Assembly: GCF_017581925.1 (NCBI RefSeq)
Contig: NZ_JAGEVG010000016.1
Span: 1-64,000, forward strand
Length of the DNA: 64,000 bases
Direction of reading: 5' to 3'
Source of the DNA: Gelidibacter pelagius
GTDB lineage: Bacteria > Bacteroidota > Bacteroidia > Flavobacteriales > Flavobacteriaceae
Of this stretch, positions 9,918 to 27,395 are shown in pieces. The notes below the pieces were generated by a model. It did no database searches and was not told the DNA's origin. It worked only from the letters and a program-made list of their open reading frames with translations. Each line of letters opens with the position of its first letter. Position 1 is the first letter of the stretch. The translations under genes were made by a program, and so were the position numbers.

Positions 9918-10381
9918 TAGAATTGTTTAAGATAAATGTCCGATATTTTATAGTAGATAATAAGGATGCCACTGATAGGTATAATTAAATATACCAGAGC
10001 TAAAGGAATTTGTAGTGCTGGCGAATGCTGGTCAAGAATATAGGTAATATAGACCAATCTTAAACCGCCGACTACCAAAGCCCCAAAGCAAAAAAGTATG
10101 ATGATAAAGTTCACAAACTTCTTGAGCTGCACTTGTTTTTCCTTACTCAAACGGTTAGGTAATATATCTATGGCAACGTGCATTCTTTTTCCGGAAATGT
10201 AGGCGGCGCCCAGGACCCCAACCCAAATCATGAGGTATCGGGCAAGCTCATCAGTAAACGAACTTGGAGCGCCCATAACAAATCTTGTAAACACCTGCCA
10301 AAGAACGTTTATAACCATAATACCCATAATAAGGGCAAGAATATAACCTAAATACAGGTCTATTTTTCTTCGAATTTCCAT
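9917..10381 (-). CDS. dctQ: TRAP transporter small membrane subunit
   Basis: 154 residues with four hydrophobic segments and the DctQ pattern: VLWQVFTRFVMGAPSSFTDELARYLMIWVGVLGAAY, with the conserved Arg/Glu-rich loop before the second helix. It pairs with the downstream DctM and upstream substrate-binding DctP to import an acidic sugar across the inner membrane. The gap to dctP is about 60 bases. Confidence 0.93.
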   Translation of the reverse strand: MEIRRKIDLYLGYILALIMGIMVINVLWQVFTRFVMGAPSSFTDELARYLMIWVGVLGAAYISGKRMHVAIDILPNRLSKEKQVQLKKFVNFIIILFCFGALVVGGLRLVYITYILDQHSPALQIPLALVYLIIPISGILIIYYKISDIYLKQF

Positions 10382-10442
10382 ATTGTTTGATTATCGATTA
10401 TTAAAAGAATTACTGTTTTATATTATAGGGTTGAAAATTGTT

Positions 10443-11429
10443 CTAATTGGTCTCTTGAATTCTCTTAATGAGACTGTATATTTCAGTATTGTCCCTATAA
10501 GAATCATAGACCGAGGTTACTTTTTCCATAAATGGCGTCTTGTCAGGTCTTGAAATGGTGACACCAGCTTTTTCCACTGCCGCAAGAGCTTCCTCTTCAG
10601 CATTAGCCCAAAGTTTTCTTTGATATTGAACTGAAGCGTCAGCCGCCTCTTGCACCCAACCTTGCTCTTCTTTATTAAGTGAATTCCAAAGATGCGTACT
10701 CATAATAAGGACGTCAGGAATGGTGGTGTGTTCATCTAACGAGAAATACTTACAAACTTCATATTCCCTGGTCAAGTAAAATGTAGGGGGATTGTTTTCA
10801 GCACCGTCCACAACGCCTTGCTGTAACGCCGTATATAACTCTCCAGAAGAAATTGGAGTTGGCGCGCCTCCCATGCTCTTGATCATATTCATGGCGGTGA
10901 CACTTTCCATGACTCGAATTTTCAATCCTTTCAGATCATCCGGTTTCTCAATAGGTGACTTCACGGTATAAAAACTTCTGCTCCCAGCATCATAATAGCC
11001 CAAACCTTTTAACCAATATTTTTCACCACCATCCAAAAGCTCTTTTCCAATCGGGCCATCTAGAACCCTAAAGGTTTGTGCACGATTCTTGAACAAATAC
11101 GGTAATCCAAACACTTTCATATTTGGTGAAAAGTTTTCCATAACGGCGGCGGACACCTTGGTCATTCCCAAACTTCCAATTTGCAGAAGTTCCAGACATT
11201 GACGCTCTGAACCTAATTGTTGATTTGGATACACGTGGATTTTTAAAGTACCTTCAGATTTCTTCTCCAGTTCCTGGCCCATAAATACCATAGCTCTGTG
11301 TACAGGATGTGTTTCATCCAGACCGTGAGCCAACTTGATTGTTTTGGCTTCTTCAACCGATTGGCAGGACACGAGTCCAAAAAACAGAGCAATCGCAAAA
11401 AACGTATATATATATTCCTTCATATTCAA
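10443..11429 (-). CDS. dctP: TRAP transporter substrate-binding protein, lipoprotein form
   Basis: 328 residues. The signal ends in a lipobox (FGLVSCQSVE), so this binding protein is probably tethered rather than free in the periplasm, as is usual for DctP proteins. Family marks: NQQLGSERQCLELLQIGSLGMT, LKGLKIRVMES, where the Arg normally salt-bridges the substrate carboxylate, and GVVDGAENNP. Cargo is inferred from the operon to be the uronate released by GH105. It lies only 7 bases from the KDPG aldolase gene, making one transcript likely. Confidence 0.93.
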   Translation of the reverse strand: MNMKEYIYTFFAIALFFGLVSCQSVEEAKTIKLAHGLDETHPVHRAMVFMGQELEKKSEGTLKIHVYPNQQLGSERQCLELLQIGSLGMTKVSAAVMENFSPNMKVFGLPYLFKNRAQTFRVLDGPIGKELLDGGEKYWLKGLGYYDAGSRSFYTVKSPIEKPDDLKGLKIRVMESVTAMNMIKSMGGAPTPISSGELYTALQQGVVDGAENNPPTFYLTREYEVCKYFSLDEHTTIPDVLIMSTHLWNSLNKEEQGWVQEAADASVQYQRKLWANAEEEALAAVEKAGVTISRPDKTPFMEKVTSVYDSYRDNTEIYSLIKRIQETN

Positions 11430-11436
11430 ACAGTAA

Positions 11437-12105
11437 TTAATGTTTTAGGGATTTGATGGTCTCTATTGTCCAACGGACCTGTTCTTCCAGCTTTTTAAAA
11501 TTCTGTTGATCCACTATGTCCTTAGTAATCAGTTGAGAACCCATGCCAACACATGTCGCTCCGGCATCAAACCATTCCTTAAGATTTTCTTTATTTGGAG
11601 ATACACCTCCAGTAGGCATGATGTTGGTCCATGGCTGCGGACCTTTGATGTTCTTTATGAATTTTGCACCAAAACTATCGCCAGGGAAAAGCTTGACAAT
11701 TTCACAGCCCATCTCTTCGGCCTGTGCAATTTCTGTTAACGAACCACATCCAGGAGACCATAAGACTTTGCGTCTATTGCAAACAATAGCAATGTCTTTA
11801 CGAAATACGGGCGTTACGATAAAGTTGGCGCCCAATGCCATGTATAAAGAGGCAGATGCCGCATCTGTTATGGAACCAACACCCATGACCATTCCTGGTA
11901 ATTCACTAATGGCATATTTGGTCATTTGGCCAAAGATCTCATGGGCAAAATCCCCGCGTGCCGTAAATTCCAGCAGACGTGCACCACCATCATAACAGGC
12001 TTTAAGAATGTGCTTGCTCAATTCTAAATCTTGGCTAAAGAATAAGGGTACCAATCCCGTTTCTTTCATGATGTTCACCACTTCTATTCTTGAAAATTGT
12101 GCCAT
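11437..12105 (-). CDS. eda: KDPG aldolase (2-keto-3-deoxy-6-phosphogluconate aldolase)
   Basis: 222 residues, the normal length of the class I Eda/KHG family. E46 (LLEFTARG) and the Schiff-base lysine K138 (EIVKLFPGD) match the E. coli Glu45/Lys133 pair; the phosphate-binding region MPTGGVSP follows. The reaction splits KDPG to pyruvate and glyceraldehyde-3-phosphate in the cytoplasm and is the last step of the pathway encoded by this operon. It sits 30 bases after kdgK. Confidence 0.95.
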   Translation of the reverse strand: MAQFSRIEVVNIMKETGLVPLFFSQDLELSKHILKACYDGGARLLEFTARGDFAHEIFGQMTKYAISELPGMVMGVGSITDAASASLYMALGANFIVTPVFRKDIAIVCNRRKVLWSPGCGSLTEIAQAEEMGCEIVKLFPGDSFGAKFIKNIKGPQPWTNIMPTGGVSPNKENLKEWFDAGATCVGMGSQLITKDIVDQQNFKKLEEQVRWTIETIKSLKH

Positions 12106-12135
12106 AAACTATTTTTTTACACGGTTTTATATAAA

Positions 12136-13158
12136 TTATCTTGAGACCAAACCTGAGGCATTTCCTTTGACCATCGCTTCTACTTCTTCAAGGGTAGCTA
12201 AATTAAAATCGCCCGAAATAGTATGTTTCAGGCAACAGGCTGCAACTGCAAAATTGATTGTGTATTGAGGATCAAAAGGGGTTTTCAACAATCCATAAAT
12301 AAGGCCTCCCATGAAGGCATCACCACTTCCAACACGATCAACTACAGGAGTGACCTCACTAACGGCAGCGGTATATACTTTCGCTCTATTATAAAAAACA
12401 CCGCCTATCTGTTGATGGGACGCACTTATGGAATAGCGCATGGTAGTAGCCATATATTTCAAATCGGGATACTGCTCAAAAAACAAATTATAATACTGAG
12501 GCAAACTGTCTGTATTTTTATAATCAAGGTTGAGCTTATCCTTTCCGGTCATCATAAATGCCGTGTCAAGATCACCCAAGATGACATGGCTATAATTTAA
12601 AAGCTCTGGCATAATGTCTTTCGGTGCCTTACCGTATTGCCAAAGCTTTGATCTATAATTTAAGTCAGTGGTAATTAGAACTCCCATACCTTTGGCAACT
12701 TTAACCGCTTCCAAACACACATCAGCTGCATTTTGGGATATAGCCGGTGTAATGCCGCTCCAATGGAAGACACTTGTATCTTGAAAGACCTTTTTCCAAT
12801 CGATCATACCAACCTCAATATTAGAAATAGCCGAATGATTCCGATCGTAGACCACTTTACTGCCACGTGTTCCTGCACCAGTTTCTAAAAAGTAAATTCC
12901 CAAACGTTCGCCACCGTACACAATGTTTTCTGAAGATACATTTTGTTTGCGTATTTCCATCAATGCTGATTGCCCAATATCGTTATAAGGAAGTCTGGTT
13001 ACGAATTCAGTGGGAACACCATAGTTGGACAGTGAGACAGCGACGTTAAACTCGCCGCCCCCATAATTGGCCATGAAAGAATTGGCTTGGGAAAATCTTA
13101 AATGATGCTCCGTAGATAGGCGTAACATGATTTCTCCAAAGGTGACTACTTTTTGCAT
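12136..13158 (-). CDS. kdgK: 2-keto-3-deoxygluconate kinase (PfkB family)
   Basis: 340 residues. N-terminal VTFGEIMLRL with YGGGEFNVAVSLSNYG and C-terminal VVDRVGSGDAFMGGLIYGLL, with catalytic Asp about 280, define a ribokinase/PfkB sugar kinase. In this operon it should phosphorylate KDG to KDPG, linking KduD to the aldolase. Sugar specificity rests on the neighbours; the family also includes fructokinases. Confidence 0.93.
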   Translation of the reverse strand: MQKVVTFGEIMLRLSTEHHLRFSQANSFMANYGGGEFNVAVSLSNYGVPTEFVTRLPYNDIGQSALMEIRKQNVSSENIVYGGERLGIYFLETGAGTRGSKVVYDRNHSAISNIEVGMIDWKKVFQDTSVFHWSGITPAISQNAADVCLEAVKVAKGMGVLITTDLNYRSKLWQYGKAPKDIMPELLNYSHVILGDLDTAFMMTGKDKLNLDYKNTDSLPQYYNLFFEQYPDLKYMATTMRYSISASHQQIGGVFYNRAKVYTAAVSEVTPVVDRVGSGDAFMGGLIYGLLKTPFDPQYTINFAVAACCLKHTISGDFNLATLEEVEAMVKGNASGLVSR

Positions 13159-13269
13159 TTATTGAATATTGTTTAATTAGAACTTGATATAAAGTCTTGC
13201 TCTTTTCTTGTTTCTATCCATAACTTTTTTTGGGTGCGGGTCTTTAAGGTTATTGGACAGTTAAGAGCA

Positions 13270-14448
13270 CTAATCTAAAGTAACAGTCATTGGGCTTTTT
13301 ATTTGTTTTGAAAAGCGGTCCAAATAGGCTTCCCATAATTCCTTTGTTGGATACTGCCCTGATTTTTTCCAAGCAAAACCGGCATAATAGATGACTCTTT
13401 CATCTAAAACCTCAAGATGGGCATAAGCATTGCTTAAATCGGTAACTTCGGTGTCATACGTTTCGTAATCGATAAAGTACTTTTTAGGTGCAACAATGGC
13501 AGTTCCTATTTCAGTATCCGCAATAGGTTGCCAATAGCTTACCCATCCCTGATCTTTATCGCCACTGACCACACCGTCATTTTCGTGCAGGGTCAATCCA
13601 GCCGAAATTTTGTCCACACCTTTAATACTGGTGTCATACTTTGAGAGATTTTGACCCAGGTCCAAACTAATTACTTTGGATTCGGTGATTTCATTTCCCG
13701 CAGCATCCCAATTAGCGTATTCCAAATAAAAACTTGTTCTGAGTGGACCAGTAGTAATGGTACGCCATTGGGTAAAGTTTTTTGAAATATAGTATGCTGT
13801 ATCCACTTTTACGGCAATGCCACCAACGCCACGGCTAGGCCCGACATGAAAGTTGTCAAGACCTTCACCGGTATCTTCATGATAGCTTCCTGTACCGTCT
13901 GTAGCTTTTTGGTACCACTTGTTGATAATTGGATACTCGACTCGTTTTAACCAAGCATCAACACCGCTGGATAGAGTGCCACCGGGAATATTCTGCTCAA
14001 TCATTTGTTGTGCTACAGGGCCATAGACCCTAAAAGCGACTTTGTCATTTTCCCACGCATAATCATCGGTACGTTCCGGTACAAAGCGCGAGTAGCACAA
14101 TTCCGGTGCTTCAGGGCGCTCTGCCTCGGTAACAGTCACAATTTCAAAAGATTGTTCACTATTGGCTTTGATTTCCGGTTGAAAGATGATGAGGTCTAAA
14201 ATCCCATCTCCATCAGTGTCAATGGTCTGTGTAACCAACAATGTCTGGGTATCGATATTTTTGATACCCACATTAGAAAGATCATCCACTTTTAAAAAGT
14301 CTTTGGTCAATTCAACCGTTTCGAAAGAGCGATCCATGTCCAAACTGTTTTTTACTGTAAATGTTTTCGCTTTTTCTTGATCAGCACATGAAGCCATCAA
14401 TGCGAATAAAGTAATAAACAAGGCGTATTTACGAAGGTGCAACATCAT
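13270..14448 (-). CDS. DUF4861 family lipoprotein of the uronate operon
   Basis: 392 residues with a lipoprotein signal (LMASCADQEKA, Cys about 21). Features include DTDGDGILDLIIFQPE near residue 75, ENDKVAFRVYGP, GLDNFHVGPSRGVGG and a C-terminal ERVIYYAGFAWKKSG. I recognise it as the DUF4861 type found in many Bacteroidota PULs, but no reaction is known to me. It lies between kduD (3-base gap) and kdgK, within an otherwise cytoplasmic catabolic operon, although it is exported. A periplasmic enzyme acting on the unsaturated sugar before TRAP import is a reasonable inference. Confidence 0.8.
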   Translation of the reverse strand: MMLHLRKYALFITLFALMASCADQEKAKTFTVKNSLDMDRSFETVELTKDFLKVDDLSNVGIKNIDTQTLLVTQTIDTDGDGILDLIIFQPEIKANSEQSFEIVTVTEAERPEAPELCYSRFVPERTDDYAWENDKVAFRVYGPVAQQMIEQNIPGGTLSSGVDAWLKRVEYPIINKWYQKATDGTGSYHEDTGEGLDNFHVGPSRGVGGIAVKVDTAYYISKNFTQWRTITTGPLRTSFYLEYANWDAAGNEITESKVISLDLGQNLSKYDTSIKGVDKISAGLTLHENDGVVSGDKDQGWVSYWQPIADTEIGTAIVAPKKYFIDYETYDTEVTDLSNAYAHLEVLDERVIYYAGFAWKKSGQYPTKELWEAYLDRFSKQIKSPMTVTLD

Positions 14449-14451
14449 TTT

Positions 14452-15243
14452 TTATTTTTCGTTAGAAGGTTTTCCGATGGTCGCCAAAATTCCGCCATCT
14501 ACATAAACGACATGGCCATTGACAAAATCACTGGCTTGGGAGGCTAAGAATATAGCAGTTCCTTGTAGGTCTTCCGGATTTCCCCAACGCCCGGCAGGAG
14601 TTCTCCCAATGATGAAATCATTAAAAGGATGTCCATCAACGCGAATTGGTGCGGTTTGGCTTGTCGCAAAATATCCAGGACCGATGCCGTTGGTTTGGAT
14701 ATTATAGCGCGCCCATTCTGTAGCCATGCTTTTGGTCAGCATTTTTAAGCCACCTTTTGCAGCGGCATAGGCACTTACAGAATCTCTGCCCAACTCACTC
14801 ATCATTGAGCAAATGTTTATGATTTTTCCGCCACCTCTGTTGATCATACTTTTGGCAACGAATTTTGAAACGATAAATGGGCCCACAAGATCCACTTTTA
14901 TGACTTCTTCAAAATCGACAGTTTCCATTTCTATAATTGGTGTTCTTTTGATAATCCCGGCATTGTTGACCAAAATGTCAATTGGTCCAACTTCGGTTTC
15001 AATTTTCGTGATGGCGGCTTCGACCGCTTCCGTATCCGTCACGTCAAAGACGTAACCATGAGCGTTTAAGCCTGAATTCTTATATTCCTTAACCGCAGCT
15101 TCCAAAGAATCTCCAGAATGGTTGTTCACTACAATGGTGGCGCCTGCATTTCCGAGGCCTTTGGCCATAGCCATGCCAAGACCGTGAACAGCACCTGTTA
15201 CCAATGCTACTTTTCCTGTTAAATCAAATAATTTAGTTGACAT
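14452..15243 (-). CDS. kduD: 2-deoxy-D-gluconate 3-dehydrogenase/KDG 5-dehydrogenase
   Basis: 263 residues, classical short-chain dehydrogenase. TGAVHGLGMAMAKG binds the dinucleotide, NNAGI is present, and the catalytic set is Ser in INICSMMS plus YAAAKGG. The C-terminal ASDFVNGHVVYVDGG is typical. In the kdu route it reduces 2,5-diketo-3-deoxygluconate to KDG. The gene follows kduI by 19 bases and precedes DUF4861 by 3, supporting the assignment over other SDRs. Confidence 0.94.
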   Translation of the reverse strand: MSTKLFDLTGKVALVTGAVHGLGMAMAKGLGNAGATIVVNNHSGDSLEAAVKEYKNSGLNAHGYVFDVTDTEAVEAAITKIETEVGPIDILVNNAGIIKRTPIIEMETVDFEEVIKVDLVGPFIVSKFVAKSMINRGGGKIINICSMMSELGRDSVSAYAAAKGGLKMLTKSMATEWARYNIQTNGIGPGYFATSQTAPIRVDGHPFNDFIIGRTPAGRWGNPEDLQGTAIFLASQASDFVNGHVVYVDGGILATIGKPSNEK

Positions 15244-15262
15244 AATATAGTGTTTTATGAGT

Positions 15263-16105
15263 TTATCTTAATTCGTTTATTTTGCAATGGTCCATGTCGC
15301 CATAGTCTAAGTTTTCTCCTGCCATCCCCCATATAAAGGTATAGCTGCTGGTTCCGGAGCCAGAGTGAATTGACCAAGGAGGGGAGATGACCGCTTGGTC
15401 ATTGGCCATCCAAATATGCCTTGTTTCGTGTGGTTGACCCATAAAATGACAGACTGCTTGATCTTCCGGAACTTCAAAGTAGAAATAGACTTCCATGCGT
15501 CGGTCATGTACGTGGGCAGGCATCGTGTTCCACGAACTACCTGGTTTTAGTGTAGTCATTCCCATTTGTAATTGGCACACGTCTACCACAGTATTGACTA
15601 TGTACTTTCTTAGTGTTCTTGCGTTGGCAGTTTCTGGTGCTCCCAATTCAATAACTTCAACATCATCAGTACCTATTTTTTTGGTAGGGAATGCTTTATG
15701 GGCAGGAGTGGAGTTCAAATAGAACTTAGCAGGTTTATTGGCAGATGTACTTGAAAAAGTGACATCCTTGTTGCCTTGTCCTATATAGAGGGCTTCTTTA
15801 TGGTTCAACACATAGTCTGTGCCATCAACCGATACCGTACCTTGCTCGCCAACATTGATAATACCTAATTCTCTTCGTTCCAAGAAGAACTCGGATTTTA
15901 GAGCATCAACAGTCTCTAACTTTAAGGGTGTGCTTGTTGGTACTGCACTACCTGCCATGTACCTATCATAATGTGTATAAACAAAATGGATTGTATCTGG
16001 CTTCATTAGTGAGTCGATCAAGAATTCATCACGTAATTTCTGGGTGTCGTAGGATTTTACATCATTCGGAGACGCCGCATATCTTACTTCATAGGTCGTT
16101 TTCAT
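15263..16105 (-). CDS. kduI: 5-keto-4-deoxyuronate isomerase
   Basis: 280 residues from the ATG at 16105; the longer upstream frame adds non-homologous hydrophobic residues and would overlap the promoter/operator. The tandem-cupin protein has the KduI metal site pattern AHVHDRRMEVYFYF, HETRHIWM and SPPWSIHSG, and begins with YEVRYAASPNDVKSYDT, typical of the family. It isomerises 5-keto-4-deoxyuronate to 2,5-diketo-3-deoxygluconate. First gene of an eight-gene minus-strand operon and divergent from the LacI regulator gene. Confidence 0.97.
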   Translation of the reverse strand: MKTTYEVRYAASPNDVKSYDTQKLRDEFLIDSLMKPDTIHFVYTHYDRYMAGSAVPTSTPLKLETVDALKSEFFLERRELGIINVGEQGTVSVDGTDYVLNHKEALYIGQGNKDVTFSSTSANKPAKFYLNSTPAHKAFPTKKIGTDDVEVIELGAPETANARTLRKYIVNTVVDVCQLQMGMTTLKPGSSWNTMPAHVHDRRMEVYFYFEVPEDQAVCHFMGQPHETRHIWMANDQAVISPPWSIHSGSGTSSYTFIWGMAGENLDYGDMDHCKINELR

Positions 16106-16171
16106 AACTTCAGTATTATTTATTAATAAAATTTTAGTTGTTCTAATAATTAGAATTGTAAATGTAACAAA

Positions 16172-16199
16172 ATAAAAATACAATCGATTGTATTTTTAT
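16172..16199. promoter_or_regulatory. 28-bp perfect palindrome, probable LacI-family operator
   Basis: The bases 16172-16199 read the same on both strands; the core is ATACAATCGATTGTAT, with the central CG pair usual for LacI-family operators. It lies in the 232-base gap between kduI (minus) and the LacI-type gene (plus), 66 bases from the kduI start. Control of both promoters by the adjacent LacI protein, released by a pathway intermediate, is inferred. Confidence 0.85.
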
Positions 16200-16337: not shown

Positions 16338-17369
16338 ATGAGCCCCGATAAAATAACCATACACGATATTGCTCGGATTCTAAATGTTGATAGTTCTACC
16401 GTTTCACGGGCACTTAACGACAGTCCCAGGGTAACTGAAAAAACTAAAAACAGAATTATTGCCAAGGCCCATGAATTGGGGTATCAGCGGAATGATTTGG
16501 CCTCAAACTTGCGCAAAAATAAAACCAATACCCTGGGTGTTATTGTGCCTCGTATTTCAAGGCATTTCTTTTCTTCTGCCATTGCGGGAATTGAAGAGAC
16601 GTCTTATAATCTTGGGTATAATGTTATTATTTGTCAATCCTTGGAACAATTGGAACGCGAGCATAATAATATCAATACCTTAGTGGCGAATAGGGTAGAT
16701 GGTGTTTTGGTATCCATATCTATGGAGACGAAAAACTACGAGCATTTTGAAGGCCTAAGAAAGCGAAAGATCCCATTTGTTTTTTTTGACAGGCATCTCG
16801 ATATACCCGATACGAGCAGTGTCCTTATTGATGATTTCCAAGCTGGTTTTGATGCTACAGAGCATCTTATAATAAAAGGATGTGAAAAAATCGCCCATTT
16901 TTCTGGGCCCATGCATTTGGAAATCTATAAAAACCGTTGTGAAGGCTATAAAGCGGCACTTCTAAAACATGATATGGAGTTTAGTGAAGAACTGATTTTT
17001 AGTTCCCGCCTAATGGAACAAGACGGTGTGGACAATGTCAATAAAATTATAGAGTTACCTTATAAGGTAGATGGTATCTTTTCAGCAAATGATGTTGCCG
17101 CCATTAGTGCCTTGCAACAGCTCAAAAGAAATGGATATAAAATACCTGAGGATATTGCCATTGTAGGTTTTAGTAATGAAGGTATATCTGCCGTGATTGA
17201 GCCGTCGTTGACGACTATCAATCAGCCTGGGTTTGATATTGGAAAACGGGCTGCTGAACTTTTAATTTCTCAGATCACTAATTCTAATAAAAACTTCATC
17301 AATGAGAAAATTGTTATTCAGGCGAGTCTTGTAGAACGAGATTCTTCCCAGCATAATATGGCCTTTTAA
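16338..17369 (+). CDS. LacI-family transcriptional regulator
   Basis: 343 residues. Residues 4-50 form the LacI helix-turn-helix (ITIHDIARILNVDSSTVSRALND) plus hinge region (RKNKTNTLGVIVP), followed by a periplasmic-binding-protein-like effector domain ending in PSLTTINQPGFDIGKRAAELLI. It is transcribed away from kduI with a palindromic operator between them, so it most likely represses the kdu/TRAP operon and itself. The effector is probably a keto-deoxy sugar acid, by context only. Confidence 0.95.
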   Translation: MSPDKITIHDIARILNVDSSTVSRALNDSPRVTEKTKNRIIAKAHELGYQRNDLASNLRKNKTNTLGVIVPRISRHFFSSAIAGIEETSYNLGYNVIICQSLEQLEREHNNINTLVANRVDGVLVSISMETKNYEHFEGLRKRKIPFVFFDRHLDIPDTSSVLIDDFQAGFDATEHLIIKGCEKIAHFSGPMHLEIYKNRCEGYKAALLKHDMEFSEELIFSSRLMEQDGVDNVNKIIELPYKVDGIFSANDVAAISALQQLKRNGYKIPEDIAIVGFSNEGISAVIEPSLTTINQPGFDIGKRAAELLISQITNSNKNFINEKIVIQASLVERDSSQHNMAF

Positions 17370-17452: not shown

Positions 17453-20400
17453 CTATTTTACAACAAACTTTACGGTTGCTATTTGATTGGTTGTTCTTTC
17501 AAATACTTTCAAAAAGTATATTCCAGATGACAATCCTGCAGTATTTATTACTGTTCCTTTTGCTTTTTGGTGACAGGTTCCTAAAATATCGTAAACTTCA
17601 AAAACGACATCATCCGAAAATCCTGACAACTTGAAATTTAGATGATCACCTGAATTCACAGGGTTTGGATAGACAAATACAGAGAACTCTGATGGATTGT
17701 AATTAACTGGAAGATCTTCCAATCCGAGAGTGGTATTGTTCAAGTTTCCTACATTGAACTCTGACACTTGAATGGTACTTCCTGAGTTAACATCCCATCC
17801 GGTAATAACTAATTTAATATAACGATAGCTCACTTCAGGGAAGGATACTTTAACTTCTGGTACATCGGTTGCAATAGGCACATCTTCAACTATTGGGTTG
17901 AAGGGGCCATTTTCTGAATTACTACCATAGAAGGATACTGAAGTCGCCCGTAGAATGCTTAAACTATTGTCCGAACGGTGTCTATAGGTAAAGAAGCTAA
18001 TATTTTGAAGAGCTTGCATGTCTATGGTAAAGGACGGTTCATATTCTGGATCAGCCGTAATTCCTCCAAAGGTCTTTCCTGGCTTTACAAACAAAAAGGC
18101 GGTTTGTGTATTGTCATCTATGATATACTCTGGCTCTGAACCTCCCACAACCGTATCCGTAGGCCCTTCTATTGAAGTTTTAATGATCCAGCCTGATTTA
18201 TCCAACAAAGTTTCTTTGCCTGGGTAAAGAGGCGAGTCTTGGTTAATATTAAATCTTAAGGACTGTCCTAAATGAGGACTGGAAGCGCTATAAGTGATTA
18301 ATCTTGGCTCTCTAACTTCAGAGGTTACCACACCCAAATTAATCGGAATTGTTTCATTTTGTGGATCTGCAACATAGATGATCGCTTCGGCTTGATCTAC
18401 ATCTTTGGCCAGTACTACACAACCTGCATCTGCTTCTATCGCAAAATCATTATGAACGAATTTCGAGGCTTTATGAAACACCAAGCCGTAACTTTTTTGT
18501 GCTTTATGGTAAACGGCTTGTAAAGAATCAGAATTTACCAAGATTTCAATATCTGAAATCATATAAGTATCTACTTCTGCCTCAGAAACTCCTGGAACAA
18601 TTACGTAGGCGTAGGTGTCTTCCGTAGGATCGACACCATGGTCAAAGGCTAATGTGAAAACGTCTTTTACAACCGTAGGCTCATTTGCATAATTGGTGTT
18701 TATACTTGACCATAAACCAGTTTTTTGCTGCGCCGATAGATTGATGTTGCCATGCTCTGGAAAGTAATAGGCTACTTTATCGTGATATACCCAATCTAAG
18801 TTGTTGTAATCATAATCGCCTGAGATTATGGAAGATTTTGTACCACCGGAAGACACGGTGATATTCCCCTCAAGAAGGTTCTGATTGACGGTTGTATTTA
18901 CTTTTAGACCTGAAGTGGATTGAATGCTGTTTCCTAAACAAACAATTTCATTATCAAAAAAGAACCATGCTTTATTCGCAGAAGTATTGATTCCACTGTA
19001 AGTGTCGTTATATTGATAGGCGGAAACGGTATTTAAATTATCGGTTACTCCACCAACAAAGTCTGATGTTCCTTTCTGAAGATAACTTGATGCTTGGGGA
19101 ATAGAAGTGTATTCTGGAGAAGTAACGCCAGGGATTTTAGACCAGTCCCACACTGGGAAAATATTATAATACTCATCGCCATCAACAAAAATTCCAGTAG
19201 CACCATCGGACAAAAAGTATTGTTTGATGCCCTCTCCGTTATCGCTTAGGTATTCATTGCGAACCGTTCTATTGGAAACCATGCGTAAATCTACTGTATA
19301 GGCTGGTTTGTTGTGTAATGTATAATCGGAATGGTAATAATGAACGCTCGAAGGTGTGATGCCATAGTTTGGATCTTCGGCTCCTGTTAATCGAGAAATT
19401 ACATTATCGTAAATTGCCGCATTTGCAGGATCAAGACTTTTCATTCGTTCAAAGATACTTGTATCCCCTGTCTTTTTTGTGGCGTTAGGTCGGGTAGAAG
19501 CCCGTCCTAAAGGGTTGAAAAGCATATATTCACCTCTAAATATAGTTGCATAGGAATCCTTTACCAAATTACTTAGAATTTGCAATCTATCAGATGGAAT
19601 GGCATATTCTGTGTCTACAGCATACATGCTTGCCTTGGTAATTCCTGTTAGAAAAACATTTCCATAGGAACCAGTATACAACTGGCGTCCGTGTTGTGTG
19701 TAAGAATTATCATATTGTATCCCTTCACTTCCTGTTGTTAGCTCAATAGGCGAATAGATATAGGTCATTGTCTCGTTCAGTAAATCGGAATCTTTGATAA
19801 GACAAGCTCTATACATATGGTGCAAAGCCACATCAATGCGGTTGGCGCCAGTTTGAGACGAAGGGTTTCCTCCATTATTGCTTAAGCGTGCAATAGCTGT
19901 GTTCAATAAGACTTCCGGAATTCTTTCACTCCCTAAATAATCCATTAGGATAAGATACTGTCCCATTAGTTTTGGTTCTCCAATTTGGTTATAATACCAA
20001 TTGTTTGAGCTTGGTTGCTCGGTTTGCCAATATTGAAGCATTGTATCCATCTTTGCTTTTAAGGAAGTATCTTCATAGTAGGTGCTTCTCTCATCAGTGT
20101 AGGCCAGCCCCATATCCATTAAACGGTCTAAATGCACTAGTGGAGGCCAGTCTGTTCTGGCGGTTGATGAATAATCGACATCCGGAAATGCACCATCTGA
20201 TTGCAATTGAGCCAAGTAAGAAGCAACATCTGCATCTCTTTGACTAACATCTTTTGATTTCTCTTGTATGAGGTCAGCAACAATACGCTCTTTAAACAAG
20301 TCAAATACCAACCTGTCCAAGACCGTTACTTGACAAGTTGCTGTAATCGATGGGTCATTTATGGCTATAGCCGTTATAGTCACGGTACCTAGAGCGAGAC

Positions 20401-21943
20401 CTTTAATTTTATTGTCTGAAGTAATTTCTACGATAGACCCATCACTAGATTCCAACGTAAATTCCTTATTGGCTACAAAAATTGGAGAGAAGTAAACGTT
20501 TAAAGTTTCAATATCATTTATCACAAGGTTGTACTCCTCATTTTCGAAGGCTATTGCCGTTGGAGTTACTGCATTGCCTATTGCCATTATTTTGGTGTCA
20601 AAATCTACGGGACTTGAGTACTCGCCCTGCATCCAGACGATATCTAAAGGAGCGTTTTCAGGCAGATTTTTTACTCGCCTTGGACGTATGTTCACTTGGC
20701 TGGAACTTGTTCCTGAAGTTAAAGTTTCTGCCTCATGCCACGTACTTCCTGAATCTGAGGTGGTATATTTGTAGATCTCGAAAACACCTTGCTCACTTCT
20801 TTTAGATAAATAAACTGTTGATAAGTCGTTGGCAGCAAAGTTAAGACCTCCTGAAGAAAAAGAATGTGAAGGAAACCGCGATTGGTTTGCAGAATAGGCA
20901 GCAGTATGCAGACCATCACCTGCATCGGCTATTTCTGTGGTTACCCATTGGTTGCTGACACTGTCCCAACGAGCCTGATGGTAAACATGTTCTGTACCAT
21001 CAGGGTTAAAAGTGTCAAACAACACAACAGGTTGATCATTGGCATCTAATTGAATATCGTAAGCCCAAGCCTTTTTGCCACCCTCTTGTTCATTAAAAAT
21101 CACATCTGGTGGACTTCCGGCATCAATGGTTGACTTGACTATGAGTGTTCCATCTGCTTTAAACAAGTCAAAACTTAATCCTGTGGTAGGTGTTGAAGTT
21201 CCTACCAATTTCATATAATGTATTGAACCTTGGTTATAAGCGTAGAAATTATCTGATTCACCACCACTGGCCAGCTGGGTAAAAACTATATGTATTGCGC
21301 CATCACTACCTTGGTAAGCCTTCATGTACGGGATATCTAATTTTACCCTATAATCATTGCCATTTTGGATGGGAAATAATCCTGCACGCCTAGTACCACT
21401 GGCTAAATCTGCATTTACAGTTTGATCTGTTGCCGAATTTAATCCTGCTCCATAAGTTATACCAACACTATTTTTTCCACGATATAATACATATATATCG
21501 TCTCCCACGGCAAATGGAAGAGTCCCACCGGCACCATATGCTATAGCTGTTTTTGGAACGGACCAATCCGAAATATCTTCAGGATTGGTAGAAACCCAAA
21601 TGAAATAATGGGCCTCTCCTTCATTTCTCGAAGCAAACAATAGAATTTGACCATTCTCCCTTACTAACAACGCCGGCGAGGCAAAATCGCCCCTATAGCT
21701 GGAAGCGACGATAGTCTCTTGATAATCACCTGTTGAATGATCATACGACGCTGCCACTAGGGACTTATTACTGTTTACCCATGAAAAATAAGACTTCCCG
21801 TTATGGTAAACGGCACTTGGCTGCGAATTCACAGACCAAGCACCGTCTTCAGTTAAAGGAACTGTAATCTTTTCCTGAGCACTTAAAATGTTGTTTCCTA
21901 AAAGGAAAACAACAAGTAATGCAAAGAGTAATTTGTTTTTCAT
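17453..21943 (-). CDS. secreted BNR propeller-PL8 polysaccharide lyase chimera with T9SS sorting domain
   Basis: 1496 residues, by far the largest enzyme of the PUL. Signal peptide 1-22 (GNNILSAQ). Residues about 25-455 form a BNR_4-type propeller (VYHQARWD, SDSGSTWHEAE), a fold also found in PL24/PL25 ulvan lyases. About 458-541 is a bacterial Ig-like (Big_2) domain. About 545-1215 is a polysaccharide lyase family 8 domain: aromatic patch W649/Y650 and catalytic N701, H751, Y760, R814 and R818, with the same spacing (50, 9, 54, 4) as in PL8 hyaluronate and chondroitin lyases. About 1245-1400 is a discoidin-like binding domain also found in the lipoprotein at 23887-25071, and 1422-1496 is a type IX secretion C-terminal domain (VYPNPVNSGD...GIYFLKV). 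PL8 enzymes cleave uronate polymers by beta-elimination, giving unsaturated products for GH105. Substrate is not defined by sequence; the propeller may be a second lyase or a binding module. Confidence 0.92.
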   Translation of the reverse strand: MKNKLLFALLVVFLLGNNILSAQEKITVPLTEDGAWSVNSQPSAVYHNGKSYFSWVNSNKSLVAASYDHSTGDYQETIVASSYRGDFASPALLVRENGQILLFASRNEGEAHYFIWVSTNPEDISDWSVPKTAIAYGAGGTLPFAVGDDIYVLYRGKNSVGITYGAGLNSATDQTVNADLASGTRRAGLFPIQNGNDYRVKLDIPYMKAYQGSDGAIHIVFTQLASGGESDNFYAYNQGSIHYMKLVGTSTPTTGLSFDLFKADGTLIVKSTIDAGSPPDVIFNEQEGGKKAWAYDIQLDANDQPVVLFDTFNPDGTEHVYHQARWDSVSNQWVTTEIADAGDGLHTAAYSANQSRFPSHSFSSGGLNFAANDLSTVYLSKRSEQGVFEIYKYTTSDSGSTWHEAETLTSGTSSSQVNIRPRRVKNLPENAPLDIVWMQGEYSSPVDFDTKIMAIGNAVTPTAIAFENEEYNLVINDIETLNVYFSPIFVANKEFTLESSDGSIVEITSDNKIKGLALGTVTITAIAINDPSITATCQVTVLDRLVFDLFKERIVADLIQEKSKDVSQRDADVASYLAQLQSDGAFPDVDYSSTARTDWPPLVHLDRLMDMGLAYTDERSTYYEDTSLKAKMDTMLQYWQTEQPSSNNWYYNQIGEPKLMGQYLILMDYLGSERIPEVLLNTAIARLSNNGGNPSSQTGANRIDVALHHMYRACLIKDSDLLNETMTYIYSPIELTTGSEGIQYDNSYTQHGRQLYTGSYGNVFLTGITKASMYAVDTEYAIPSDRLQILSNLVKDSYATIFRGEYMLFNPLGRASTRPNATKKTGDTSIFERMKSLDPANAAIYDNVISRLTGAEDPNYGITPSSVHYYHSDYTLHNKPAYTVDLRMVSNRTVRNEYLSDNGEGIKQYFLSDGATGIFVDGDEYYNIFPVWDWSKIPGVTSPEYTSIPQASSYLQKGTSDFVGGVTDNLNTVSAYQYNDTYSGINTSANKAWFFFDNEIVCLGNSIQSTSGLKVNTTVNQNLLEGNITVSSGGTKSSIISGDYDYNNLDWVYHDKVAYYFPEHGNINLSAQQKTGLWSSINTNYANEPTVVKDVFTLAFDHGVDPTEDTYAYVIVPGVSEAEVDTYMISDIEILVNSDSLQAVYHKAQKSYGLVFHKASKFVHNDFAIEADAGCVVLAKDVDQAEAIIYVADPQNETIPINLGVVTSEVREPRLITYSASSPHLGQSLRFNINQDSPLYPGKETLLDKSGWIIKTSIEGPTDTVVGGSEPEYIIDDNTQTAFLFVKPGKTFGGITADPEYEPSFTIDMQALQNISFFTYRHRSDNSLSILRATSVSFYGSNSENGPFNPIVEDVPIATDVPEVKVSFPEVSYRYIKLVITGWDVNSGSTIQVSEFNVGNLNNTTLGLEDLPVNYNPSEFSVFVYPNPVNSGDHLNFKLSGFSDDVVFEVYDILGTCHQKAKGTVINTAGLSSGIYFLKVFERTTNQIATVKFVVK

Positions 21944-22433: not shown

Positions 22434-23690
22434 TCAATATTTTACATGATAATCTTTCTTAAACGCAGCGCCGTTCCAGGCCTTTTGGGAGGTCCATTCT
22501 TCTGCAGGATCACTCCAAAAAGGATTGTCGGCTGGGAGGCCTAAAGGTAAAAAACTTAAGGATGCCATGTATAAACTTCCGGTGGAGGTATAATAATCGG
22601 CTATTTCCGGAGTGTGTCCCGTAAATCCAAGTTTTAACCAGCCATTTTTATCAAACGCCTCGCCGCCAAGCATATTTTCAGTGACTTTAGTGAGTGCACA
22701 TCGTACTTGTGCAGGACTGACACCTTCAGGAAGGTTTTCTTCCAATGCTACTTGTGCCAACGCTTGCATTGCACCGGTCCGATAGGTTATTGACCGTCCT
22801 ATGACGGGAAATGTACCCACTGGCGAGATCATTCGTTCCAACTGATCGGCGTAGCGCACCATGCGTTTTAGCGCAAGATCGTAGTCAGCTTGCGGTTTTA
22901 TGTTATGTTTGACCAAGATTTCCAAAGTATCCACCAACATGGGGTGAATTACAAACGAGTTGTAATAATCAAGCGCAAAGGTTGGTCCGTCACTGTACCA
23001 TCCATCACCCACGTACCATTCGTCAAACTTATCGAGTGCTTTATCCACTGCTTTCTTATCCCAATCTTTTTCACCTATTGATAGCAAAAAAGATTCTGTT
23101 AACGCGGTGAAAAGTAACCAATTGCTATCGAATGCTTTTCGCGTTCTCAGTGCTTTAAGTTCTGTAATCACTCGTGTTTTAGTTTGTGCATCGAGTGGTT
23201 CCCATAATGCTTTTCTTGCTCTAACAAAACCATGGACCATATAAGCGGCATCCACAATGGGTTGATGCTCGTTTCTGAAATTCAAATAATCTGGACTTGA
23301 TGGGTTCACTCCGTTAGCTATTCCTTTGAGTACATTCGCTCTTAGGGTGGCTCTCAATTTTCCTTCTTCAGAAGAATCATCAGGTAATGCCAACCACGGC
23401 GCTATTCCTGCCAAACATCGCCCAACGGCTTCCAAATAGGTGACGTTCTTTCGGCTATCGTAAAAAGGCGATTTTTCCACCAGCATGTTTTTTCGTAAAG
23501 TTCCCTTGGCCAGATTGGAAAAAATGGGATCGGCCATTTTATAAATAATATGTACCCATAAATCTCTATCATTCCCTGAAACAGGAAGGGGATGGGACAA
23601 CTTAGTGTCGCTAGCCACCATTCCAAAGGGTGTGATGGCGGAAAGCATCACGGCTCCAGAAACTGATCCTAAAAATTTTCTTCGTTCCAT
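22434..23690 (-). CDS. Tat-exported DUF2264 protein, GH154-type glucuronidase candidate
   Basis: 418 residues. It starts MERRKFLGSVSGAVMLSAITPFG, a twin-arginine (Tat) signal unlike the Sec/lipobox signals of other PUL members. The body has an alpha/alpha-toroid look with RCLAGIAPWLALP, FDEWYVGDGWYSDGPTFALDYYNSFVIHPML and PVIGRSITYRTGAMQALAQ, which I recognise as DUF2264. As I recall, the founding characterised member of this family (GH154) is a beta-glucuronidase. In this locus it would remove glucuronate or act on end sugars in the periplasm. It is flanked by terminators on both sides, so it has its own promoter. Confidence 0.82.
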   Translation of the reverse strand: MERRKFLGSVSGAVMLSAITPFGMVASDTKLSHPLPVSGNDRDLWVHIIYKMADPIFSNLAKGTLRKNMLVEKSPFYDSRKNVTYLEAVGRCLAGIAPWLALPDDSSEEGKLRATLRANVLKGIANGVNPSSPDYLNFRNEHQPIVDAAYMVHGFVRARKALWEPLDAQTKTRVITELKALRTRKAFDSNWLLFTALTESFLLSIGEKDWDKKAVDKALDKFDEWYVGDGWYSDGPTFALDYYNSFVIHPMLVDTLEILVKHNIKPQADYDLALKRMVRYADQLERMISPVGTFPVIGRSITYRTGAMQALAQVALEENLPEGVSPAQVRCALTKVTENMLGGEAFDKNGWLKLGFTGHTPEIADYYTSTGSLYMASLSFLPLGLPADNPFWSDPAEEWTSQKAWNGAAFKKDYHVKY

Positions 23691-23886: not shown

Positions 23887-25071
23887 TTAAAGCTCTTCAT
23901 ATCCAAGTTTGATGATATTAAAATCGGATATCTGAACCGTATTCCCTGTGGCATGCCACTTGTCATAAGTTAACTTGAAATAACGGTAACTGACCGTTTT
24001 AGGTAGATCGACGATGACTTCATTTTCTTCAACATTAATACTTAAGCCTTCAGCCACAGACTCAAAATCTACACCGTTGTTGCTTCCATACACACTTGCT
24101 TCCGCTAATCTTAAAAAAGCTGAAGCATTCTTGAGACGATGACGTAAGTAAAAGGCATCAAAATCTTCTTCCTTTTTCATATCAATAATAAAATACACTT
24201 CCTCATCGTTTCCAACGGTTATTCCTCCTAATGACTTTCCTGGTTTTACCAAAACCAAACAAGTAGGCTCTCCTTCCATAGTGCCGTAAGCATCTGGGTC
24301 ATCGATTAAACTTTCTGGAGTCCCAACTACAGTACCATCAGCGAAATACGGGTGAGAGGTTGTGACTTCCCAACCATCGCGATCTAAATTTTGATAGGTT
24401 GTGTTTCTAACCTTAATTTTTATGGTTTTTTCTATATTACTGCCATCATCCGATTTAATGGAGATGTTAACATCACCAAGACCCACCGTGGTAAGAACCC
24501 CTCTACGGGTTATCGTTGCAACTGAAGTATCATCTGAAGCAAAGATTAGATCCTTGTTGGTAGCGAACTCTGGGTTAATACTAATGATTTCTGATAAATT
24601 AATGGATTTATCGATACCCATATAAAAATCTTGATATGCTGGATCTATATCCAAAGATTCAATCAAAAACAATTTACTATTCACTTTAACTGTTATGGAG
24701 GTCCATAAATCGGTATTGTTCACTGGATCTATCCTTAATGCCGCTTCACCAACTCCAATAGCGGTAATAACACCATCTTCGTTTACTTTAAAGACCTCTT
24801 CATTTGCGCTAGAGTACTCATAGCTGTACGCGTCTTTATCTTCAGCGTCATCTGGCAATAACTTCACATTGACCTTGTATGTATCGGCCACTTCCAATAC
24901 GACAATGTCATCAGTTATGCCCTCCACTTCTATACGCGTTACTTTTATGACGTTTTCCTGTACGTCGTCATCTGAATTACAGGAAACAGTCATTATGGTA
25001 AGGGAAAGTAATACTATCCAAACAAACCCAATACTTTTCACTAATCTCATATTTTTATAGTTTATTCTCAT
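23887..25071 (-). CDS. putative surface glycan-binding lipoprotein
   Basis: 394 residues with a lipobox (SLTIMTVSCNSDDD); the real start may be M1 or the second Met 7 codons in. Two Big_2-like domains span about 40-130 and 135-215 (DGVITAIGVGEAALRI; RRGVLTTVGLGDVNISI). Residues about 220-390 are a discoidin-like domain clearly related to that in the PL8 enzyme: shared LVKPGKSLGGIT, FIIDM, RHR, YGSN and VSYRYFKL. Position after SusCD and domain make-up fit an SGBP that captures the polymer at the cell surface. No catalytic residues are visible. Confidence 0.8.
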   Translation of the reverse strand: MRINYKNMRLVKSIGFVWIVLLSLTIMTVSCNSDDDVQENVIKVTRIEVEGITDDIVVLEVADTYKVNVKLLPDDAEDKDAYSYEYSSANEEVFKVNEDGVITAIGVGEAALRIDPVNNTDLWTSITVKVNSKLFLIESLDIDPAYQDFYMGIDKSINLSEIISINPEFATNKDLIFASDDTSVATITRRGVLTTVGLGDVNISIKSDDGSNIEKTIKIKVRNTTYQNLDRDGWEVTTSHPYFADGTVVGTPESLIDDPDAYGTMEGEPTCLVLVKPGKSLGGITVGNDEEVYFIIDMKKEEDFDAFYLRHRLKNASAFLRLAEASVYGSNNGVDFESVAEGLSINVEENEVIVDLPKTVSYRYFKLTYDKWHATGNTVQISDFNIIKLGYEEL

Positions 25072-25091: not shown

Positions 25092-27395
25092 TTACTTATA
25101 TAGATTGATATTATCATCTTGAATATCCTCCACATTGGCATGGGGCATTTCATAGCCAGCGGCATTGACTTCAGTAATTAGGGCATCTATTTGTTCTTGT
25201 GTGATTTTAAACGGTTTATTACCGTAATCGTTTATGGTTTTATCTATAGGAGTAAGGAAGCCCCACTTCTGGAAAAAGTCAATCATATTTAATCCTGAGA
25301 TTTTACAAACCTGTCGGACAAAATCTAACTGCAATACAGCCTCTGTATTTGCACTAGTATTTAAATTATTGGTGATACGATAGTGCTCATAAAGATCCTT
25401 ATAGAAATCTTCTTTGCCCAAAGCGTCAACCATATATAGTTTCAGTTGCCAGAAAGGTACAAGTTTTACCATAAATTCATTGGATGCATTGTCCAATGCG
25501 TGAGGTGCTCCTGCGTCTATAATTTGAGTCTTCGCCTCAGCATAAGTTCCATCAACAAGTAGTTTCGAAGGCTCTCCAAATTCGGTCTGTACATACATAG
25601 ACATAATGTTATTGGTAACTTCAGTTGTTCCAGCCCATTTTAATGCTGGCCTAAGTTGATTGACATGGCCTACTTCATGAGCAGGACCCCATAGACGGGC
25701 TTCAAAACGATCCGCATTACAAAATATCTCTGCATAACTAGAGGTGTACGCAGTTCGGTAATTTGTAGCATATGGGCTAGCTCCATTGTAGTCTATGTGA
25801 AAATACATTCTGTTCTTAAACATTTTGTCATATTTTTCCAATCCAGCAAATTCCGATTCCAAATAGACCAAACGGTCGTATTTTTCAAGAACACTCACAA
25901 TATCCGTGTTGAATGATCGGAAATTTTCGGTTGTCCAGGTTATATGGGAACGCAAGCCGAGTACATCTATATCTTGATATGATGCGTTGTTGAGTATCGA
26001 TGACCAGTCCTCACTAGTGTGTTTTGCTAAATCAAAATAGCCGTTGACTTTAGCATTGACAAAATGAATATCTACTGATTTGGCTGTAGCGGCAGCCTTA
26101 TCTGCTTCGGATTCCAAAATGAGTGGAATGTCATCTGCGGTAAGGTTTTGGACATAGATGAGCCCTCCAGCATCCATATTCAATCGGTTTTCTCCTTCTT
26201 GGAGTGGATAGCTTTTGGCGTTGCCAAACCCAACATTTAAATCCTGAACAATTAATGATATGTTCTGCTTGTAAGCCCCTCCAACAATCACGACCAATTC
26301 CTCTCCTTCTTCTACATAAATTCCTGTTGGATTATCTCTTAAACTATATGGTGAAGTTTTGTTAATTGCACTTTGAATCGATGGATTTTGATACGGGCGG
26401 AAAGATGCCACTCTAAACTCACGATCGTATTCTCCAACAAATAGGTCTAAAGCTAAATTGCGTAACTCATCATCTGGAATGGCTTTCAATTGAGCTTCGG
26501 TGACGACATCCTTCAAAACTGAGAAGACATCATCTTCAAAAATGGATGAATAATCGTAGCCTGTGTTGCCATCTTGATAAAACTCCATTTCTGCACAACT
26601 GATTCGATTTTGATAGGCTGAATAAATATCAAAACGCACTTTCGCGGCATTTACAATCGGAGTTTCCAATTTCATTATGGTTGGATTATGGTTGCCATCC
26701 CCGCGTTCGTATTCGCCCACCTTTGTAAAGGTGTCTGGTGCATCTTTTGTTGATACCCATACTTCATATTCGTTAAACGATCCCCATTTGTTTCCTGAAT
26801 CCGATCGCGGATAATAAATAATCCTATTTAACGTATGGCCTTCCTCAAGTGTATATTCTATTTGGAAAGGCCATTCCGTAATAGCGCCAAATTTCGAATT
26901 GAAATAAGTTTCATAATCGCCATCATATGACTTTTCAAGACCGCGGTCTTCATTTACAGTTTCTTCGGAAGTTGCCTTGCCACTAATAACCTCAATAAGT
27001 TGATCACCAACGGCAGCATCTTGACTAATAGGCACCTTACGACTATAATCTCCATAGTCTATAGTTAAAATAGTGTTTCGTGGAGATTCATAATAGTTGG
27101 GCATGGTAGTTACATGCAAATAGTTGCCTTCTAAATTAAGTGTACACCAATCCTTTCCATTATCAGAGACCCGGTAGGTAACATCCTGTGGATCGATATC
27201 GTTTGTGAGTACTAAATACACATCTTTAGTTCCACCGCTAGCATTAAAATCTAATTCCAGGGGCAAGACCTTTAGCCATCCATCATTTTCGGAGTCTATG
27301 ACATTATCTTTATCACAAGAATGAACTCCAACGACAAAAATCATAAGTAAGGCATAAATCCAGACTTTTCTTTTATAAATTAGTTTCGTTATCAT
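25092..27395 (-). CDS. M60-family zinc metallopeptidase lipoprotein with BACON and F5/8 domains
   Basis: 767 residues; lipoprotein (VVGVHSCDKD). A BACON-type domain spans about 40-130 (LDFNASGGTKDVYL), a discoidin/F5/8-type binding domain about 140-280 (SYDGDYETYFNS ... ISCAEMEFY), and an M60 catalytic region. The gluzincin motif H573-E574-V-G-H577 is complete, with the downstream zinc-ligand candidate E592 in TTEVTNNI. M60 (enhancin/IMPa-type) peptidases cut heavily glycosylated proteins. Within a uronate PUL this suggests the natural glycan is protein-linked, or that host/algal glycoprotein must be opened. It sits 26 bases after susD and 20 before the SGBP gene. Confidence 0.88.
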   Translation of the reverse strand: MITKLIYKRKVWIYALLMIFVVGVHSCDKDNVIDSENDGWLKVLPLELDFNASGGTKDVYLVLTNDIDPQDVTYRVSDNGKDWCTLNLEGNYLHVTTMPNYYESPRNTILTIDYGDYSRKVPISQDAAVGDQLIEVISGKATSEETVNEDRGLEKSYDGDYETYFNSKFGAITEWPFQIEYTLEEGHTLNRIIYYPRSDSGNKWGSFNEYEVWVSTKDAPDTFTKVGEYERGDGNHNPTIMKLETPIVNAAKVRFDIYSAYQNRISCAEMEFYQDGNTGYDYSSIFEDDVFSVLKDVVTEAQLKAIPDDELRNLALDLFVGEYDREFRVASFRPYQNPSIQSAINKTSPYSLRDNPTGIYVEEGEELVVIVGGAYKQNISLIVQDLNVGFGNAKSYPLQEGENRLNMDAGGLIYVQNLTADDIPLILESEADKAAATAKSVDIHFVNAKVNGYFDLAKHTSEDWSSILNNASYQDIDVLGLRSHITWTTENFRSFNTDIVSVLEKYDRLVYLESEFAGLEKYDKMFKNRMYFHIDYNGASPYATNYRTAYTSSYAEIFCNADRFEARLWGPAHEVGHVNQLRPALKWAGTTEVTNNIMSMYVQTEFGEPSKLLVDGTYAEAKTQIIDAGAPHALDNASNEFMVKLVPFWQLKLYMVDALGKEDFYKDLYEHYRITNNLNTSANTEAVLQLDFVRQVCKISGLNMIDFFQKWGFLTPIDKTINDYGNKPFKITQEQIDALITEVNAAGYEMPHANVEDIQDDNINLYK

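Follow-up and report, generated by a model that had tools for sequence, protein, structure and literature searches.

A PL25/PL42-type propeller, probably no longer a lyase, fused to a secreted PL8 lyase in Gelidibacter pelagius

Gene and protein architecture

The window analysed here is a stretch of 64,000 nucleotides from Gelidibacter pelagius (Flavobacteriaceae; contig NZ_JAGEVG010000016.1, positions 1 to 64,000). One gene on its minus strand encodes a putative secreted protein in which a beta-propeller of the BNR_4 type precedes a chondroitinase-like lyase of polysaccharide lyase family 8 (PL8). The initial annotation of this DNA had described a single secreted protein joining a propeller of the PL24/PL25 class to a complete PL8 lyase, acting either as a two-lyase enzyme or as a lyase with a new binding module. 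The joined architecture was recovered using Pfam, and the features of the gene are as follows.

17453..21943, minus strand: whole gene, propeller-Big_2-PL8-F5/8C-type IX secretion system (T9SS) tail; 1496 amino acids, ATG start (open reading frame analysis)
21875..21943, minus strand: likely signal peptide, residues 1-23 (by eye: hydrophobic N-terminus, end ...NNILSAQ)
20579..21874, minus strand: degenerate PL25-type beta-propeller (BNR_4), residues 24-455 (Pfam, profile, predicted fold)
20363..20509, minus strand: Big_2 domain, residues 479-527 (Pfam)
18329..20308, minus strand: PL8 lyase, chondroitinase-AC-like, residues 546-1205 (Pfam, PDB alignment)
17783..18136, minus strand: F5/8 type C domain, residues 1270-1387 (Pfam F5_F8_type_C)
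17456..17674, minus strand: T9SS C-terminal sorting tail, residues 1424-1496 (Pfam Por_Secre_tail 1424-1494, TIGR04183)

Translation of the open reading frame (ORF) 17453-21943 on the minus strand gave no internal stop codons, and the plus strand across the same interval is rich in them. BNR_4 (PF15892) was matched at residues 51-340 (E = 1.8e-13; 50.9 bits against a gathering cut-off of 27.3). The PL8 matches were Lyase_8_N at 567-838 (202.9 bits, cut-off 24), Lyase_8 at 868-1120 (245.2 bits, cut-off 27) and Lyase_8_C at 1133-1198 (44.5 bits, cut-off 22). TIGR04183 scored 40.5 bits against a cut-off of 23, as for a type A T9SS sorting C-terminus. Six weak promoter-consensus matches were counted upstream of the gene, where 2.6 (sd 1.5) were expected; no terminator was found in the same scan.

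The G. maritimus counterpart has the same architecture, with 92% identity across residues 1-1496. So does a counterpart in a second genus (genome G1032; locus L188), where Big_2 and F5/8C score slightly below the Pfam cut-offs. Since the whole architecture recurs in G. maritimus and in another genus, an origin of the fusion in an assembly join was ruled out.

The PL8 half

Chondroitinase AC (1hm2) was aligned to residues 550-1197 using phmmer (E = 3.2e-136). N701, H751, Y760, R814 and R818, which the initial annotation had singled out for their PL8 catalytic spacing, align with N175, H225, Y234, R288 and R292 of 1hm2. W126, E371 and N374 are also kept, as W649, E897 and N902, and W127 is substituted by Y650. 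The set N701/H751/Y760/R814/R818/E897 is common to both other PL8 fusions in a direct alignment. We take N, H, Y, R, R and E to be the catalytic residues of PL8, and 1hm2 and 1cb8 to come from Pedobacter heparinus. These two entries represent the same three-domain lyase with the same six catalytic residues; unlike the window protein, their chains, at 678-700 residues, are too short to include an N-terminal propeller, Big_2 or F5/8C as well. The NCBIfam chondroitinase-AC equivalog model gave 567 bits, below its cut-off of 1000, and the class is therefore AC-like rather than of equivalog level. Judged by sequence, the PL8 half appears to be a complete lyase, and glycosaminoglycan (GAG)-cutting activity is predicted.

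Propeller fold

Residues 22-460 were modelled using AlphaFold2 as one propeller-type fold, with a predicted template modelling score (pTM) of 0.83 and a mean predicted local distance difference test (pLDDT) of 75.5, in agreement with the bounds of 25-455 first proposed. Foldseek ranked PL25 highest (E = 1.2e-14), followed by glycoside hydrolase family 145 (GH145), PL42 and PL24. VIA gave PL25 at Z 31.7 (373 aligned, root mean square deviation 3.2), GH145 (5muk/5mum) at about 30, PL42 at 27-28 and PLL lectins at 25-26; PL24 chains were not among the best 50 VIA matches, which excludes nothing. A relative with an intact site, L044, gave a better model (pTM 0.90) that matched PL25 at Z 36.0. A profile built from 18 propellers (A1) was run against the PDB and returned PL25 5uam (E = 1.2e-10) as the sole match below 0.001, the next lying at 0.0045. 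The model is thus predicted to have the PL25/GH145/PL42 fold, with PL25 ulvan lyase PLSV_3936 (5uam/5uas) as the nearest solved structure.

Propeller site residues

The lyase site comprises His123/Tyr188/Arg204 plus His143 in PL25, His146/His167/Tyr243/Arg259 in PL24 and His85/His105/Tyr150/Arg166/Tyr202 in PL42, where Arg166 and Tyr202 contact the carboxylate site (PMC8377490, excerpt). Tyr246 is a further site residue of PL25 (PMC13193363, excerpt). Positions 99, 119, 164, 180 and 222 of the 5uam chain correspond to H123, H143, Y188, R204 and Y246 (offset 24), and the A1-5uam alignment places the family residues H/H/Y/R/Y on these five. The equivalents in the window protein are listed below.

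21683..21685, minus strand: F87, place of PL25 catalytic His123 (His in 38/42 family members; profile alignment)
21623..21625, minus strand: N107, place of PL25 His143 (profile alignment)
21524..21526, minus strand: G140, place of PL25 base Tyr188 (profile alignment)
21479..21481, minus strand: R155, kept neutraliser Arg (PL25 Arg204, PL42 Arg166; profile and direct alignment)
21326..21328, minus strand: Y206, kept Tyr (PL25 Tyr246, PL42 Tyr202; profile and direct alignment)

One of the three residues of the PL25 catalytic set His123/Tyr188/Arg204 is kept (F87/G140/R155). A Zn site, His208/Cys266/His264/His278, is a further feature of PL25. Against PLSV_3936 the equivalents of His123, His143 and Tyr188 are F, N and G, and those of Arg204 and Tyr246 are retained. 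The anterior five-residue set of PL42 and the former GH145 (FoRham1 7esk, BT3686 5muk; same fold, VIA Z 27-31) likewise reads F, N, G, R, Y through the PL25-equivalent columns, with the His85, His105 and Tyr150 equivalents lost and those of Arg166 and Tyr202 kept. Direct alignment gave F/N/G at the first three positions, followed by the kept R and Y, in all three PL8 fusions.

Within the subfamily, 42 propellers from 40 genome stretches were compared, leaving out a partial contig-end propeller (L182), duplicate re-fetched loci, and archaeal and other plasmid matches. All five PL25-site residues are kept in 37. The five exceptions are L110, with Tyr at the second His, and four degenerate propellers: the three PL8 fusions and a BNR_4-GH88 protein (L151). 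Fifteen intact relatives share 39 invariant columns. Of these, the window protein keeps 26, its G. maritimus counterpart also 26, and L129, which is the L151 protein again, 20; when intact relatives were left out one at a time, each kept 39 of 39-44 invariant columns.

These residues bear directly on the two-lyase alternative, in which the propeller would itself act as a lyase of the PL24/PL25/PL42 type on a second linkage. The fold, the profile match to PL25 and the retained R155 and Y206 are consistent with it; F87, N107 and G140 stand in place of the acid His, the neighbouring His and the base Tyr in every fusion, whereas 37/42 relatives are intact. In BACCELL_00856, a GH145/PL42-type relative, lyase activity is reportedly lost through H90Q alone (PMC8406133, excerpt). 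The two-lyase alternative is accordingly contradicted and very improbable. Because the acid/base His and Tyr are lost, we strongly infer that the propeller no longer works as a PL25/PL42-type lyase. The loss of all lyase-site residues, which the initial annotation had named, along with absence of ligand binding, as grounds for giving up its proposal, is found for the base and the acid, but R155 and Y206 remain.

Selection on the propeller

The ratio of nonsynonymous to synonymous substitution (dN/dS) against G. maritimus was 0.123 for the propeller (dN 0.044, dS 0.357) and 0.147 for PL8. Identity to the second genus is 293/432 (68%) for the propeller and 439/660 (67%) for PL8. All three fusions agree at 18 of the 22 lost family positions, compared with 232/375 other positions (p = 0.07); for 13 core pocket positions the figure is 12, against the same 232/375 (Fisher p = 0.037), both sets having been picked after the loss had been seen. 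The substitution ratios and identities indicate that the propeller is maintained by selection and constrained as strongly as PL8. Decay of the propeller after a gene fusion would fit the stem branch of 1.95 changes per column and the many family residues lost; the dN/dS is as low as that of PL8, and the identity between genera is equal. This constraint largely refutes decay, which is hardly credible.

The fixed pocket could also belong to an enzyme with a different active site, as in the posterior glycosidase pocket of GH145 (BT3686 His48). The replaced pocket residues are fixed across two genera, for example in the runs VPLTEDGAWSVNSQPSA, RGDFASPALLVR and AYGAGGTLPF, and E108, E110, H112 and H242 are invariant in the three fusions. 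GH145 offers a precedent for two sites in one propeller (PMC8406133, excerpt), and its structures 5muk/5mum match the model, as given above. No catalytic set is recognisable, however, the equivalent of the posterior His48 is not mappable at 12% identity, and a conserved binding pocket predicts the same fixed residues. A re-tooled enzyme is therefore judged unlikely.

Distribution and origin of the fusion

The fusion was found as one ORF in 3/9 genomes of the genus, in one case interrupted by a scaffold gap. The G. japonicus copy is truncated to residues 312-1496 and begins at a run of N in the scaffold, so a genuine short form was rejected in favour of an apparent assembly gap. Profile search gave the one-ORF fusion in 2/397 family genomes (its own and G1032). 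Beyond its own genome it was found in none of 199 family genomes by protein search (two candidates per genome scored), and in none of 395 class or 395 phylum genomes sampled. The genome draws overlap and sample larger groups, with 2 or up to 4 candidates scored per genome, and the counts are lower bounds. A search of close-relative contigs yielded 78 loci, two with the fusion (L032 and L033), one of these partial, and a plasmid search gave no record with a single place covering 80% of the protein. Within these sampled searches the PL8 fusion was seen only in Gelidibacter and one other genus.

The BNR_4-PL8 architecture was not found in titles and abstract openings of the open-access literature, and the initial annotation, which knew of no described case, was borne out to that extent; nor did the sampled genomes and this literature provide many described homologues. 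As far as searched, this architecture, in which a pseudo-lyase propeller kept by selection is joined to an intact PL8 lyase, appears to be undescribed.

Separate propeller genes lie near PL8 in two of the 78 loci (L041 and L044), and also in L110 and L111. All four belong to the same propeller subfamily and are either fused to GH88 or separate, never joined to PL8; L111, L041 and L044 keep all lyase-site residues. The L041/L044 gene is BNR_4-Big_2, with a T9SS-tail match below cut-off; the fusion, too, begins with BNR_4 and Big_2 in that order. In the propeller tree the fusion clade joins the L041/L044 propellers (support 99/97) on a very long stem. The fusion propeller was probably once a separate gene of the PL25/PL42 kind beside PL8. 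In a quick PL8 tree of 85 rows the L041/L044 PL8 is not nearest to that of the fusion, so the PL8 partner need not stem from the same type of locus.

L151 was placed elsewhere in the propeller tree. A single shared site loss for it and the fusion clade was rejected (approximately unbiased test, p = 0.007 against one clade; the branches are long and the group was named post hoc), and L151 seems to have lost its site independently. Of the five site positions, this BNR_4-GH88 paralog (L151:6791-9250, also L129) retains only that of the base Tyr, its two His, its Arg and its second Tyr being lost; its gene adjoins one for a DUF2264 dehydratase.

The locus and its substrate

The genes around the fusion are as follows.

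8622..11429, minus strand: TRAP transporter, DctM, small ORF between, DctP (domain scan)
11437..16183, minus strand: uronate catabolism, KduI, short-chain dehydrogenase (KduD inferred), DUF4861, PfkB kinase, KDPG/KHG aldolase
16338..17369, plus strand: LacI-family regulator (domain scan)
22434..23690, minus strand: DUF2264 protein, beta-D-glucuronate dehydratase type (9o4u E 1.9e-145, 9nwf 1.4e-144)
23887..25071, minus strand: small Big_2 and F5/8C protein, possibly surface glycan-binding (40% identity to fusion residues 1247-1410)
25092..27395, minus strand: peptidase M60 protein (domain scan)
27422..29299, minus strand: SusD (domain scan)
29303..32410, minus strand: SusC/TonB-dependent receptor (domain scan)
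32613..33791, minus strand: GH88 unsaturated uronyl hydrolase (domain scan, PDB match)
33797..38047, plus strand: hybrid two-component sensor, Reg_prop, HisKA, HATPase, Response_reg, HTH_18 (domain scan)

The minus-strand gene order is GH88, SusC, SusD, M60, Big_2 plus F5/8C, DUF2264 and the fusion. A SusC/SusD pair, carbohydrate-active enzymes and a regulator thus occur together, as in a Bacteroidota polysaccharide utilization locus (PUL). In Bacteroides caccae a glucuronate dehydratase converts saturated glucuronic acid (GlcA) ends to the unsaturated form, which GH88 removes, and this enzyme (BcGDH) sits in the chondroitin locus PUL25 with PL35, GH88, GH109 and M60 (PMC12269599, excerpt). 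The window shares with PUL25, as that excerpt presents it, GH88, the dehydratase, M60 and the lack of a chondroitin sulfatase; it differs in having PL8 in place of PL35. No sulfatase and no GH109-type (Gfo/Idh) domain were found among the 28 other window proteins scanned, a subset of the ORFs. Five sulfatase matches lie elsewhere in the genome, none of them on the window contig.

The nearest PDB match of the GH88 protein is the unsaturated 3S-rhamnoglycuronyl hydrolase 4ce7 (E = 6.9e-63), which points toward ulvan. Ulvan was nevertheless not favoured as the substrate, given the AC-like lyase and the dehydratase and M60 genes like those of PUL25. We infer that the locus serves a GlcA-containing GAG, for example chondroitin or hyaluronan.

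The DUF2264 dehydratase gene lies near the degenerate propellers of the window, of L146 (with the ortholog of the window protein) and of L151, not of L188, and near non-degenerate propellers in 0/36 stretches. This association is only a hint, because L111 and L151 share a contig, stretch lengths differ, the comparison was post hoc and this gene is also found at PL8 loci that have no propeller (L040, L045).

The window genome has one PL8 match. G. maritimus carries two further PL8 genes (L145:11435-13843 and L146:5664-7817), with extra SusC-like genes on the same contig, and the second genus has a GH2 gene (L188:11794-13851) in place of the Gelidibacter glucuronate dehydratase gene. Elsewhere in the window, 2302-6771 may be a distinct uptake cluster: a TonB receptor is encoded there together with a DUF5074 protein and one that matches PKD_3 weakly. 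A GMC oxidoreductase with a small partner ORF lies directly beyond the locus regulator (38263-40508).

The wider propeller subfamily

Among the 42 propellers, 18 share an ORF with GH88, three with PL8, 12 stand alone and nine are in other arrangements; GH88 fusions account for 17/38 non-degenerate propellers. No characterised member of the subfamily was found in open-access titles and the starts of abstracts. BNR4 and GH88 occur as separate genes in two ulvan papers, as far as their excerpts go. The dehydratase P29_PDnc was dropped as a relative, the excerpt of PMC8511951 containing no mention of a propeller or BNR.

BNR_4-GH88 fusions are encoded at L110:6912-9311, L111:5798-8263 and L112:619-3123, two of which have a PL8 gene next to them. 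The PL25-type site is complete in L111 and L112, and L110 is the protein with Tyr at the second His. From their sequences these proteins are candidates for making and removing unsaturated uronate on one chain. The reverse order, GH88-BNR_4 (L196-L201, L204, L205 and L148; GH88 first in, for example, L197), marks a second subfamily at about 260-290 bits with the site present. One of the nine other arrangements joins BNR_4 to a Pec_lyase domain (L161:6813-10253; the same gene in L132); it has all five site residues and is possibly a true two-lyase protein. L041:4810-9138 encodes one 1442-aa protein with DUF4861, GH88 and F5/8C, and its L044 counterpart is two adjacent ORFs (6038-7537 and 7553-9340), possibly through a frame break.

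Interpretation

The protein is best read as a secreted PL8 lyase carrying a propeller of PL25/PL42 descent that is not a lyase and most likely binds a uronate chain (probability about 0.58). Uronate binding is suggested as the most likely role because the propeller is maintained by selection and the carboxylate Arg/Tyr pair is kept. The fold is also that of the PLL lectins. Of the two alternatives of the initial annotation, the new binding module would fit best. The T9SS-secreted PL8 would cut chondroitin- or hyaluronan-like chains by beta-elimination, leaving unsaturated uronate ends. The propeller would bind the uronate chain through R155/Y206 and hold it near the PL8 site. GH88 would remove the unsaturated uronate, and together with the dehydratase would clear the ends.

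Several observations weigh against this reading. The pLDDT is below 50 at residues 144-182, 205-215, 230-233 and 326-342 of the model. Site residues were mapped by profile alignment rather than by side-chain superposition, PL25 being about 15% identical to the model, and the hidden Markov model alignment shows Ala at the Arg column of L188, where direct alignment of the fusions gives Arg. The kept Arg/Tyr pair could be structural, and the fixed pocket replacements would be equally expected from a new catalytic role. The 4ce7-like GH88 argues against a firm GAG call for the locus.

The low-confidence stretches are also what a structural spacer might show, or a docking platform for a surface protein (SusC/D, M60 or the surface glycan-binding protein) with no glycan contact. 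Neighbouring proteins share Big_2 and F5/8C modules, and the fusion already has an F5/8C domain able to bind. That the Arg/Tyr pair is retained and the former pocket fixed suggests instead that the central face still matters, and a spacer or docking role is given a minor share of our belief.

A more specific extension of the uronate-binding reading is put forward tentatively and may well be wrong. The propeller would be a rebuilt uronate-reading module with a re-fixed, non-catalytic pocket, welded to the PL8 whose chain it feeds; its parent clade would consist of propeller lyases or dehydratases, whose step the propeller could afford to lose where a separate enzyme (the glucuronate dehydratase, or perhaps GH2 in the second genus) supplies it. 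If this is true, the BNR_4-GH88 proteins of the parent clade make unsaturated uronate and remove it on one polypeptide.

The fusion provides a case, open to experiment, in which a propeller of enzymatic descent has become a conserved module without lyase function, base and acid being lost and the carboxylate pair kept. BNR_4-PL8 proteins annotated as ulvan lyases would be mislabelled. The propeller subfamily with the full PL25-type site, often fused to GH88, may supply GH88 with the unsaturated uronate it requires in GAG and other uronate pathways.

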